In this document: piece after piece, positions 12,168-38,268 of the stretch
Layout of the letters: the number at the start of each line of letters is the position of its first letter
Position numbering within the stretch: the first letter of the stretch is position 1
Assembly: GCF_014204915.1 (NCBI RefSeq)
Contig: NZ_JACHMH010000001.1
Span: 248,001-312,000, forward strand
Origin: Crossiella cryophila
Lineage (GTDB): Bacteria; Actinomycetota; Actinomycetes; Mycobacteriales; Pseudonocardiaceae
Reading direction: 5' to 3'
Length of the DNA: 64,000 nucleotides
Translations under genes and position numbers: made by a program
The notes under the pieces: generated by a model
Database searches by the model: none
What the model saw: the letters and a program-made list of their open reading frames with translations, nothing else
What the model was told of the DNA's origin: nothing

Positions 12168-12197
12168 GGGGCCGAGCCTACGTGCTCGGGAAACGAT

Positions 12198-12227
12198 CAG
12201 CCCCCGGCCTTGGCGGGCCGGGGGCTG
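12198..12227 (-). terminator. Hairpin between the pra-like gene and metB
   Basis: Perfect 12-bp stem CAGCCCCCGGCC / GGCCGGGGGCTG with a 6-nt loop (12210-12215), located 31 bp past the stop of the pra-like gene and 31 bp before the metB start. It should end or attenuate the cbs/pra transcript before metB. Confidence 0.8.
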
Positions 12228-12257
12228 AAGTTTCGTTTACGGTTTTCGCGCTACGGC

Positions 12258-13385
12258 TCAGTAGCCGGGGTAACCCCCGCCGCCACCGCCGTAGGGCGGC
12301 TGCTGCGGCGGCTGGCCGTAGCCACCCATCGGCTGCGGCCGCTGGGCCTGCTTGAGCTTCATGCCGGCGGTGGTGCCAGGCAGCCACCAGACCACCAGCA
12401 CACCGATCCAGAGCAGCAGCGGCAGGATGGTGAGGAACCCGCCGAGGGCGAGGCCGCTCAGGCCGCCGAGCACGCCGATGCCGCCGAGCACGGTGATTGT
12501 GATCCGGGCCCAGTTGGCGCCCTGCGAGCCACCGATGAAGCCCAGCACGCCGACCCCGATCGCCACCAGGAAGCCGATGACGACGCTGATGTAGATGGTG
12601 CCGGGCACGAAGCGGGACGGCAGGCCGAGGATGTTGATCAGGTTGATGATGTTGAAGATCAAAGCCAGGCCGCCGACGCCGACCGAGACCCACATGGCCA
12701 CCGGCAGCGTGTTGCTGCCACCTGCCTGGCCGTACGGCTGCCCGTAGCCCTGCTGGGGCTGACCCCAGCCCTGCTGCGGCTGGCCGTAACCCTGCTGCGG
12801 CTGCTGCTGGCCCCAGCCCTGCTGTTGACCGGGCTGTGCCTGGGGCTGGCCCCACTGCTGCTGCGGCTGCGGGCCGGTGCCCGGCTGCTGACCCCACTGC
12901 TGCTGGGGCTGGCCGCCGGTCTGCGGGTAGCCGGGCTGCTGCTGGGGCTGCTGACCCCACTGCTGCTGACCGGGCTGGGCCTGCGGCTGCCCCCACTGCT
13001 GCTGCGGCTGGGCCTGCGGCCCGGTCGGCTGCTGCGGCGCGGGCTGCGGCTGGGCGAAGGACGGCGGCGCGTACTGCGGTGTCACCGGCGGCTGCTGACC
13101 CGGCGGCACCACCTGGGTGGCATCCGGCGCGGGTGCGGCAGGCGCGGCGCCGCCCGGCTGGACCACCTGGGTGGCCTCCGGGTTGGCGGGCTGCGCAGGC
13201 TGCCCCGCGGAAGCGCCCAACGCCGAGGAGATCACCTGGGTGGTGTCGGCGTGCGGCGTGTGCGTGGTCGTCGGCAGACCCTGCGCCGGGGACGGCGTCG
13301 GGTCGGCCGCGCCACTCTGCGGATCAGCCTGCGGCTGCCCACCCTGGCCTGGATACGGCTGCTGGGGCGGCTGCGGAGCGCTCAT
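12258..13385 (-). CDS. Proline/glutamine-rich membrane protein (Pra-like)
   Basis: A 375-residue protein. The first ~235 residues are very rich in Pro, Gln and Gly, with imperfect repeats of the type WGQPQAQPGQQ and GYGQPQQG. The C-terminal ~140 residues hold four hydrophobic segments (for example VAMWVSVGVGGLALIFNIIN and ITVLGGIGVLGGLSGLALGG) and end in GGGGGGYPGY. Position between metB and cbs matches M. tuberculosis pra (Rv1078, proline-rich antigen), so it is probably the positional homologue. ATG at 13385 follows AAGGAA; the longer in-frame start at 13469 is rejected because its extension is not Pro/Gln-rich and lacks a ribosome site. Function unknown; cell-envelope location inferred. 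Confidence 0.8.
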   Translation of the reverse strand: MSAPQPPQQPYPGQGGQPQADPQSGAADPTPSPAQGLPTTTHTPHADTTQVISSALGASAGQPAQPANPEATQVVQPGGAAPAAPAPDATQVVPPGQQPPVTPQYAPPSFAQPQPAPQQPTGPQAQPQQQWGQPQAQPGQQQWGQQPQQQPGYPQTGGQPQQQWGQQPGTGPQPQQQWGQPQAQPGQQQGWGQQQPQQGYGQPQQGWGQPQQGYGQPYGQAGGSNTLPVAMWVSVGVGGLALIFNIINLINILGLPSRFVPGTIYISVVIGFLVAIGVGVLGFIGGSQGANWARITITVLGGIGVLGGLSGLALGGFLTILPLLLWIGVLVVWWLPGTTAGMKLKQAQRPQPMGGYGQPPQQPPYGGGGGGYPGY

Positions 13386-36807: not shown

Positions 36808-36872
36808 AGCGGCGCCGTTCGCCTAGGTGTCAGCCGAACGGAATCGTGCTGACCTGGGCGGACGGCGCCGCT
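36808..36872 (-). terminator. Long hairpin just downstream of the tRNA gene
   Basis: Arms 36808-36834 and 36848-36872 pair over 25 positions, with two G-U wobbles, a 2-nt bulge and a 13-nt loop. It starts 6 nt after the tRNA 3' end on the minus strand and is followed by TCCGTCTTTCC. Probable tRNA terminator; it also shields the response-regulator promoter. Confidence 0.75.
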
Positions 36873-36878
36873 GTCGAG

Positions 36879-36952
36879 TGCCCCCGGACGGATTCGAACC
36901 GTCACTCGGACCCTTTTAAGGGGCCTGCCTCTACCGATTGGGCTACGGGGGC
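36879..36952 (-). tRNA. Atypical type-I tRNA, anticodon UAA (identity uncertain)
   Basis: A complete cloverleaf of 74 nt without encoded CCA: acceptor stem GCCCCCG / CGGGGGC with discriminator A, T arm GACGG-TTCGAAT-CCGTC, and anticodon arm GGCCC-CTTAAAA-GGGTC giving anticodon UAA (36916-36918). That anticodon reads UUA (Leu), yet the variable loop is only 5 nt (CGAGT), whereas bacterial tRNA-Leu has a long variable arm. The D stem GCCC pairs with GGGC only if one A is bulged, and position 28-42 is G-U. A TAGGCT -10 box (36965-36960) would start transcription at about the mature 5' end. It could be misread by a non-leucyl synthetase, be a recoding tRNA, or be decaying. Confidence 0.8.
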
Positions 36953-37009
36953 AGCGGGCAGCCTAAGCCGTGGAAGGTCGCTTTCGGGTCTCAATCGCGA
37001 CAACTCGCC

Positions 37010-37046
37010 CGTGCGGCCGAACACATCTGGCCCGACCGGCCGCACG
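37010..37046 (-). terminator. Second terminator-like hairpin after the ATP-grasp gene
   Basis: Perfect 9-bp arms CGTGCGGCC and GGCCGCACG with a 19-nt loop, between the ATP-grasp gene and the tRNA gene. With the hairpin at 37064 it forms a tandem that would isolate the tRNA from upstream transcription. Confidence 0.6.
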
Positions 37047-37063
37047 AAAGCGCAGCTCGCGAG

Positions 37064-37092
37064 GCCCGTGCGGGCTAGAGACCCGCACGGGC
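37064..37092 (-). terminator. Terminator hairpin spanning the ATP-grasp stop codon
   Basis: Perfect 11-bp stem GCCCGTGCGGG / CCCGCACGGGC with a 7-nt loop that contains the TAG stop of the ATP-grasp gene (37075-37077). The last codons of the gene therefore double as one arm. Confidence 0.72.
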
Positions 37093-38268
37093 GTCGAGTA
37101 GCTCGGTGAAGCGGCCTGCCACCCAGTCGTGCACCGCGTCGGAGACCTCGGTGCTGCCGGCGCGGTGCTCGAACCAGCGCCAGTCACAGCTCACGTTGAT
37201 CTCCAGGAAGACGTGCTCACCGTCCACGGTGAGCAGGTCGAACGCGGCCACCTGGACGTTCCAGTGCCGGGCCAGCGCGAGCAGCTTGACGGCCAGCTCG
37301 TCCGGGATCTCCGCCCTGGTCACCTTGACCGCGTCCGGGTCGACCCACAGCTGCGCCGGGTCCAGCTTCTCCACCCAGTAGCTGATCAGCTTGTCGTCCA
37401 CCACGAAGACCCGCAGCTCGCCGTCGGCGTTGAGGAACTGCTGCACGATCACCGGCGCGGACTCGGGGCTGTCACTGGCCCTGCTGGTGTCCAGCGGACG
37501 CGGGAACAGCCCGTGCAGCGCGCCCGGCCGGGGCTCCAGCAGGTGCTGACCGGCGGTCTTGACGATGCAGCGGCCGCCGCCGGGCCTGGTGCGGCCGGGC
37601 TGGGTGGTCACCGCGGTGCGCGGCACCCTGAGCCCGAACGCGGCGGCGTCGGTGAGCTGGGTGAGCCGGTCGAGCTGGCAGGTGGCCCTTGTCGGGTTGA
37701 CGTGCTCCCAGTCAGTGCGCTGGGCCAGCCAGTTGATCACTGATCGCCACTGGTCGGCGGCGTAGGCGCCGCTGATGGTGCGCTGGTCGACCGGGACCGC
37801 GGAGATGTCGAAGTGCCGCCGCCAGACCAGGATCGGGCGCAGCAGCCGCAGATCCAGCTCGACCAGCGGGGCGTCGGTGTAGATGGTCAGCGGCAGGTTG
37901 AGGCAGCGGTCGGCGTCGATGCGGACCATCCGGATGCCGCGTTCGGCCAGCGCGAGGGAGAGTTCGTTCATCTCCATGTCCGCGGCCCTGGCCAGCACCA
38001 GCACGCAGGGCAGCGGATCGCCGCCGTCCTCCTCGACGAGGCCCATCTCGTGCACCCGCTCCTGGAAGTCCAGGCAGGTGCTGGGCGAGCGGTAGTAGTA
38101 GTCCTGACCCTGCAGCAGCAGCGGGGTGGTCCTGGACGGACTGGCCGGGAGCGGGACGGCGGCAGGCGTCACCTCGGTGGGCGTCGACTCGGGGTCGATC
38201 ACCTCGGTGGCGGCAGGCGGACCAGGTGGCCTTGGTGCTGCCTCCTGCCCCCGTCCGGCGGCGGTCAC
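37075..38268 (-). CDS. MvdD-like ATP-grasp peptide ligase (candidate RiPP maturase)
   Basis: A 397-residue ATP-grasp enzyme. A Pro/Thr-rich N-terminal ~50 residues precede an unusual YYYRSPSTCLDF segment; the pre-ATP-grasp domain (VLVLARAADMEMNEL, IRMVRIDADRC) and ATP-grasp core follow: GGGRCIVKT, VIVQQFLNADGELRVFVVDD, and metal-binding FLEINVSCDWRWFE. The last motif resembles the FLEVNPxGQWxWVE signature of microviridin-type ligases MvdC/MvdD, which join Asp/Glu side chains to Ser/Thr/Lys in peptides. GTG start at 38268, only 3 bp after the stop of a 39-residue peptide gene, its likely substrate. Length exceeds the ~320 residues common in the family. A RimK-like ligase role is an alternative. 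Confidence 0.8.
   Translation of the reverse strand: MTAAGRGQEAAPRPPGPPAATEVIDPESTPTEVTPAAVPLPASPSRTTPLLLQGQDYYYRSPSTCLDFQERVHEMGLVEEDGGDPLPCVLVLARAADMEMNELSLALAERGIRMVRIDADRCLNLPLTIYTDAPLVELDLRLLRPILVWRRHFDISAVPVDQRTISGAYAADQWRSVINWLAQRTDWEHVNPTRATCQLDRLTQLTDAAAFGLRVPRTAVTTQPGRTRPGGGRCIVKTAGQHLLEPRPGALHGLFPRPLDTSRASDSPESAPVIVQQFLNADGELRVFVVDDKLISYWVEKLDPAQLWVDPDAVKVTRAEIPDELAVKLLALARHWNVQVAAFDLLTVDGEHVFLEINVSCDWRWFEHRAGSTEVSDAVHDWVAGRFTELLDARAGL

Follow-up and report, generated by a model that had tools for sequence, protein, structure and literature searches.

A short-armed tRNA-Leu(UAA) as the probable reader of rare UUA codons in Crossiella cryophila and its relatives

The 64,000-nucleotide stretch of the Crossiella cryophila genome analysed here (contig NZ_JACHMH010000001.1, positions 248,001 to 312,000; hereafter the window) carries a single tRNA gene, called by ARAGORN as a tRNA-Leu(taa) on the minus strand. 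Judged from its sequence, it very probably encodes a functional short-armed (type I) tRNA-Leu that reads UUA and is charged by the single leucyl-tRNA synthetase (LeuRS) found in the genome; both its expression and its charging by LeuRS are what we infer. The gene and its parts are located as follows, the cores being the short-armed Leu(UAA) sequences compared below.

36879..36952, minus strand: tRNA-Leu(UAA), type I, with a short variable loop, 74 nt, without encoded CCA (ARAGORN; Rfam RF00005)
36927..36943, minus strand: D arm GCCC-AATCGGTA-G-A-GGC, of the leucine type (motif test on the genome's own tRNAs; 118 cores)
36930, minus strand: extra bulged A of the D stem (direct reading; minimum free energy (MFE) fold; 118 of 118 cores)
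36916..36918, minus strand: anticodon UAA (ARAGORN, anticodon at tRNA position 35)
36904..36908, minus strand: variable loop CGAGU, 5 nt, last base U48 (direct reading)

An earlier sequence-only reading of this DNA had described a cloverleaf with a UAA anticodon and a 5-nt variable loop at exactly 36879-36952, with one extra A bulging in the D stem, and both features were recovered, the cloverleaf by ARAGORN, by Rfam (RF00005, 60.3 bits with a cut-off of 29) and by direct reading, the bulge by direct reading and in the MFE fold. Read directly, the tRNA has an acceptor stem of 7 bp (GCCCCCG/CGGGGGC), the anticodon loop CTTAAAA, anticodon and T stems of 5 bp each, the T arm GACGG-TTCGAAT-CCGTC and the discriminator A73, while A36930 stands unpaired between the pairs C13-G22 and C12-G23 of the D stem. 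This D arm is 1 nt longer than the GCTC..GAGC arm of many other tRNAs in the genome, and the variable loop, with its 5 nt, falls short of the at least 10 nt that define a type II tRNA. The free MFE fold reached -33.9 kcal/mol (z -2.84 against shuffles), with the same A bulged.

The genome of 10.06 Mb, assembled in one contig, gave 49 tRNA matches, for which ARAGORN called 48 distinct sequences. Its leucine set comprises long-armed tRNAs with the anticodons CAG (84 nt) and GAG (84 nt, in two places) and short-armed ones with UAA, CAA, and UAG (75-76 nt as called). Counting the tRNA-Leu(UAA) genes, a check suggested with the earlier reading, returned one: no second tRNA with a UAA anticodon was found among the 49 matches, and a pattern for the long-armed UAA form had zero matches in this genome. 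The leucine D-arm motif, GGNAGA together with three bases pairing with positions 10-12, was present in all five Leu tRNAs and in none of the 43 other distinct tRNAs. Because the motif occurs in both Leu classes and in none of the others, the extra D-arm nucleotide is a leucine mark shared with the long-armed Leu tRNAs; ARAGORN and the D-arm test both assign the tRNA to leucine. One frame of 986 aa scored above the LeuRS family cut-off, with weaker matches in other frames below it.

Comparing 118 distinct short-armed Leu(UAA) cores, drawn from loci up to L206, revealed a shared signature: A73, U48, A14A15, C13, and the D-loop AGA were invariant in all 118, and so was the possible C13-G pair beside the bulged A. 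The variable loop had 5 nt in 108 cores and 6 nt in 10, and in the acceptor, anticodon, and T stems the bases of most pairs vary, with pairing kept in 112 to 118 of the cores. The 16 distinct cores of the long-armed Leu(UAA) form have G at position 13 in 15 cases and C in one. According to the accessible part of PMC9976931, the leucine identity elements of E. coli are A73, A15-U48, G18G19, and A20a, E. coli LeuRS can do without the long arm in charging, and charging likewise takes place in human mitochondrial tRNA-Leu(UUR), which lacks that arm. All of these identity letters are found in the sequence of our tRNA, the last of them standing at 20a or 21 in the fold.

What UUA stands for in the proteins was read from open reading frames (ORFs) of 400 kb of the genome, compared with those of two genus members in 400-kb stretches surrounding their copy of this tRNA (1342 directed reciprocal ORF pairs, UUA masked, one site being able to count more than once). 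Of 47 ortholog comparisons, 45 placed UUA opposite leucine, and 29 of the 47 were UUA against UUA; without these UUA-UUA pairs, leucine in another codon was found in 16 of 18, or in 12 of 13 when counted by sites. Leucine-codon controls gave 0.89-0.94 (CTG 0.93), and GTA, TTT, and ATA gave 0.04, 0.04, and 0.11. Since UUA aligns with leucine at the rates of the leucine controls, UUA means leucine in these proteins by descent, and a routine foreign residue at UUA is unlikely. This bears on the earlier suggestion that the tRNA delivers a different amino acid at UUA, i.e., acts as a missense tRNA in a local code change or as a mistranslation device. Leucine stands at the UUA sites of orthologs as often as at other Leu codons, the leucine identity positions are present in the tRNA, and the same short form, not the long one, was matched by pattern in 128 of 246 genomes of the class; we rejected the suggestion on the first two grounds and regard it as very improbable.

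A decaying copy or pseudogene, which had also been proposed, would fit the odd D stem and the CCA that is not encoded. However, a 76-nt stretch with the tRNA was 100% identical in five of five genomes of the genus, our own included, although the downstream flank diverges; the bulge is invariant in the cores; CCA is encoded in the genes of some relatives and absent from those of others; and, with no other UAA-anticodon tRNA found, pseudogene status would leave UUA without a found reader. Neither a relaxed sequence nor broken pairing was seen, and decay was rejected as extremely improbable in view of the conserved gene and its invariant signature.

Some observations weigh against a functional tRNA-Leu with this signature. 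AA14-15, GG, and AGA belonged to the pattern by which many of the loci had been retrieved, so that their invariance is partly built in, whereas C13, U48, and A73 did not belong to it. The centroid fold leaves C13 unpaired, and both the MFE and the centroid fold give a loop of 4 nt in the anticodon arm, not the canonical 7. Free folds of a tRNA may close the anticodon arm differently from the canonical form; as they deviate here, the cloverleaf rests on the tRNA models and not on the free fold. Overall identity to the genome's own type I tRNAs for Thr, Phe, and Arg was 0.74, compared with 0.73 to the long-armed Leu(UAA) of other genomes and 0.76 to the genome's own Leu(CAA), the closest of all, values so nearly equal across the classes that similarity alone proves neither leucine identity nor descent; a nearest-neighbour comparison of ancestry with the anticodon and the variable region removed was uninformative. 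Finally, two of the 18 informative UUA comparisons showed Phe (one site near an ORF end, in two relatives).

The functional tRNA-Leu could, in addition, be a regulator of the bldA kind, which would carry leucine while its late or conditional supply gates genes containing UUA; as an added function this is compatible with the leucine reading, though we consider it rather doubtful. As expected of a bldA-like tRNA, no other tRNA-Leu(UAA) was found besides it, and the genome uses UUA sparingly: this codon makes up five of the 1731 Leu codons in 48 window ORFs, fewer than any other Leu codon, and 28 UUA occur in the 312 ORFs of the genome's own 400 kb. In the three 400-kb stretches, the first 30 codons hold 30 of 61 UUA compared with 5.2 expected, a 5.8-fold enrichment that is the highest of the 24 codons listed, and UUA was retained as UUA in 29 of 46 leucine-aligned comparisons (0.63). 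However, the other 23 codons listed were enriched at gene starts as well, by 1.6- to 4.6-fold (ATA 4.6, ACA 4.0, AGA 3.9), with ORF starts that had been called mechanically; TTT was retained at 0.60 (CTA at 0.45); and the seven own genes with conserved UUA that were tested encode a mixture of functions, namely an aldolase, a MarR regulator, a YchF-like GTPase, a trypsin, an alpha/beta hydrolase, a DUF6542 protein, and one protein with no family. The regulatory role put forward earlier has the rarity and start bias of UUA on its side, a bias shared by other A/T-rich codons, and any bldA-like signal in codon position or retention appears at most slight in these sequences. UUA apparently near the gene start was kept in all three genus genomes in, for example, genes for a MarR-family regulator and a trypsin-like protease; such loci lie at G000:C1 137819-138532 and 216460-217551.

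The short-armed form is widespread among relatives. DNA matches to the tRNA were present in 148 of 150 genomes of the family, and all 29 relatives examined besides our own genome carry a short-armed tRNA-Leu(taa); the anticodon is known for those 29 matches, and weaker ones among the 148 may be other isoacceptors. Across the class, the pattern for short-armed Leu(UAA) matched in 128 of 246 genomes (reversed control: one genome) and the long-armed pattern in 16, none of them shared with the 128, while neither matched in 102 genomes, including all those of genus g68 in family f20. We take the latter for Streptomyces, whose long-armed gene presumably has a D loop shorter by one G and would escape the pattern, so that the lack of genomes with both forms is valid for the patterns used. 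The short-armed tRNA-Leu(taa) of Streptomyces olivoverticillatus (L133 1708-1784) has a D arm of another kind, GCGC..CGC, and the genome of this species (G395) gave one pattern match only, from a pattern that may miss the bldA gene. A scan for any Leu anticodon in 50 class genomes found short-armed matches in 35 and long-armed ones in all 50; the 44 short-armed matches, tallied by eye, comprised 19 UAA, 21 CAA, and 4 UAG, with no CAG and no GAG. In a sample of the phylum, 94 of 149 genomes matched (reversed control: one genome), 29 with the short-armed and 64 with the long-armed form by a tally made by eye, and one spuriously; inspection by eye also marked the match in G530, and one of the two matches in G541, as spurious. 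Both forms occur within each of the families f46, f53, f55, and f84, suggesting that a switch or a transfer happened more than once.

Among named genomes, the best 80 of 118 matching stretches consisted of 75 short-armed Leu(taa), one type II tRNA, and four with no tRNA under the match. By title, the matches listed were mostly actinobacterial, with Mycobacterium, Nocardia, Rhodococcus, Gordonia, Corynebacterium, Amycolatopsis, Saccharopolyspora, Pseudonocardia, Nocardioides, Microbacterium, Bifidobacterium, and others as hosts of the short-armed form. Ten of the short-armed loci listed are titled otherwise (e.g., Planctomycetota, Rokubacteria, Cylindrospermum, Flavobacteriaceae, and one just "bacterium"), and four of these ten lie inside large tRNA arrays. 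A combined pattern applied to the genomes of 20 chosen loci found the short form only in 17 and both forms in three.

How such a tRNA could work may be pictured as follows. The long variable arm is absent, but the tRNA keeps the leucine identity elements: A73, A14, A15 paired with U48, G18G19, and a D loop with GGNAGA, the last made possible by the one extra D-arm nucleotide. With these elements kept, the single LeuRS found would charge the UAA tRNA together with the long-armed CAG and GAG isoacceptors. The C13-G22 pair with the bulged A may compensate for the lost arm by rebuilding the short-armed core; a tRNA with G13 and a long arm would presumably not need C13-G22. As a tentative generalisation, bacterial tRNA-Leu might repeatedly have switched from the long- to the short-armed form, on chromosomes mainly for UAA, CAA, and UAG, each time with the same compensation by C13-G22 and the bulged A, so that one LeuRS would then serve two structural classes. 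If this is true, the cell, tRNA-targeting toxins or phages could treat the readers of UUA and UUG apart from the bulk readers of CUG and CUC.

Concerning its origin, the short-armed gene might have been spread by phages or tRNA arrays and have displaced a native long-armed gene, a history compatible with its leucine function that we consider unlikely. Some large arrays carry type I Leu genes even with the anticodons CAG and GAG (L184, L188, L203), and nine phage records match, eight with a tRNA-Leu annotated under the match and one without annotation. However, our tRNA has no other tRNA gene with it in the window, and the same upstream gene ends next to it in five of five genus genomes; the copies in arrays have other sequences, and in L170 the CAG and GAG tRNAs are long-armed; the phage matches are distant, with 77.6-80.0% identity; and in L147, from a Rokubacteria metagenome-assembled genome (MAG), the type I gene comes after tRNA genes for Gly and Cys, which we take to be the order of the resident glyW-cysT-leuZ operon, in a genome (G398) that also has a long-armed match. 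As to the arrays themselves, L184 2179-6517, L188 1815-4535, and L203 771-3681, hosted by one actinomycete MAG and two cyanobacteria, have their called Leu tRNAs, CAG and GAG included, in short-armed form; in the Chloroflexaceae array L170 56-4411, the CAA and UAA tRNAs are short-armed and those with CAG and GAG long-armed.

The surroundings of the gene contain the following features.

36960..36965, minus strand: -10-like hexamer TAGGCT, beginning at -13 from the tRNA; the same hexamer in four of five genus genomes
36953..37025, minus strand: conserved block upstream of the tRNA, probably its promoter region, in which five genus genomes agree in 68 of 73 columns
36808..36872, minus strand: downstream hairpin with 21-nt arms, 90% complementary, a possible terminator without a T run
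37010..37046, no strand assigned: hairpin in the spacer separating the tRNA from the upstream gene, with 10-nt arms, 100% complementary
37060..37096, no strand assigned: hairpin spanning the end of the upstream 397-aa ORF with 15-nt arms, 93% complementary

A consensus scan of the tRNA flanks found no sigma-70 site and no terminator. The -10 box claimed earlier starts at -13 and is conserved, but it was absent from the sigma-70 scan, and as that scan was empty the promoter assignment rests on conservation. The terminator of its own that had likewise been claimed is partly supported: the hairpin at 36808-36872 is present, but it lacks a T run, was not returned by the terminator scan, and lies in a region that is unalignable in two of five genus genomes (G016 and G086). 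The two upstream hairpins described at the same time are both there, at 37010-37046 and 37060-37096. For the upstream ORF (397 aa, 37075-38268, minus strand) a Pfam search gave no family, and the next gene downstream of the tRNA encodes a response regulator. Elsewhere in the window, an Rfam match to sraL (12196-12312, minus strand, 40.4 bits with a cut-off of 39) is probably due to chance in a GC-rich actinomycete.

Another unusual tRNA of the genome is a short-armed one with a UCA (opal) anticodon at L307 1501-1575, minus strand (G000:C1:2055083-2055157), which ARAGORN calls tRNA-SeC at a length of just 75 nt; judged by eye, a C.A pair would have to close the anticodon loop for it to count 7 nt. 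It was 100% identical in three of three genus genomes searched and had matches, mostly weak, in 13 of 60 family genomes. Tandem double matches of this type occur in G051 and G007, and in G051 (L308) ARAGORN calls a tRNA-Glu(ctc) and a tRNA with a four-base anticodon. A suppressor tRNA or one with a function outside translation is possible.

Reviews, as far as their accessible parts go, present tRNA-Leu generally as a long-armed class II tRNA (PMC7609411, PMC9976931), and in human and fungal genomes a short loop in place of the long arm is taken in the accessible part of PMC8450103 to point to a pseudogene or a wrongly assigned tRNA. Unlike this picture, the UUA reader is not long-armed in much of the Actinomycetota sampled, and our results are a warning that a short loop is normal for Leu tRNAs in these bacteria and no sign of misassignment or pseudogene. 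ARAGORN already names such genes tRNA-Leu, so the individual genes are not new. In the literature searched, which covered few subscription papers, a systematic description of short-armed chromosomal bacterial tRNA-Leu was not found, with partial mycobacterial mentions only; neither the class switch nor its signature or spread seems to have been described there. What makes the system attractive is that two tRNA-Leu classes are apparently served by one LeuRS. Nature thereby provides a way of testing the purpose of the long arm, since LeuRS recognition, SerRS (seryl-tRNA synthetase) avoidance, and bldA-type control can be compared between two tRNA-Leu classes in one cell.

Mycobacteria have one of the closest known systems. 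Their loci L168, L172, L173, and L197 are type I Leu(taa), among the matches listed; the parts of the papers available mention a mycobacterial tRNA-Leu case in the context of long-looped tRNAs (PMC11541572) and a short-looped tRNA-Leu(TAG) in a mycobacterial tRNA cluster (PMC6582537), in both without the class switch, the D-arm signature or the spread. With type II tRNA-Leu, i.e., the genome's own CAG and GAG tRNAs and, by class, Streptomyces bldA, whose own sequence lay outside the comparison, our tRNA shares the Leu anticodon, A73, A14-A15, U48, and, in the D arm, an outer stem of 3 bp and the GGNAGA loop. It differs in a variable region of 5 nt compared with 13-15 nt, and in a C13 able to pair with G22 next to a bulged A, where 15 of 16 distinct type II Leu(UAA) cores have G13. 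Mitochondrial tRNA-Leu(UUR) likewise has a short variable loop and, according to the accessible part of PMC9976931, is charged by LeuRS essentially via A73 and A14; in contrast to ours, it belongs to an organelle with its own LeuRS and has a partly unfolded anticodon branch. The tRNA-Leu of arrays and phages are of type I too and partly have the same D arm, but those of the arrays are clustered and some carry CAG or GAG, unlike all 44 type I matches of the class.
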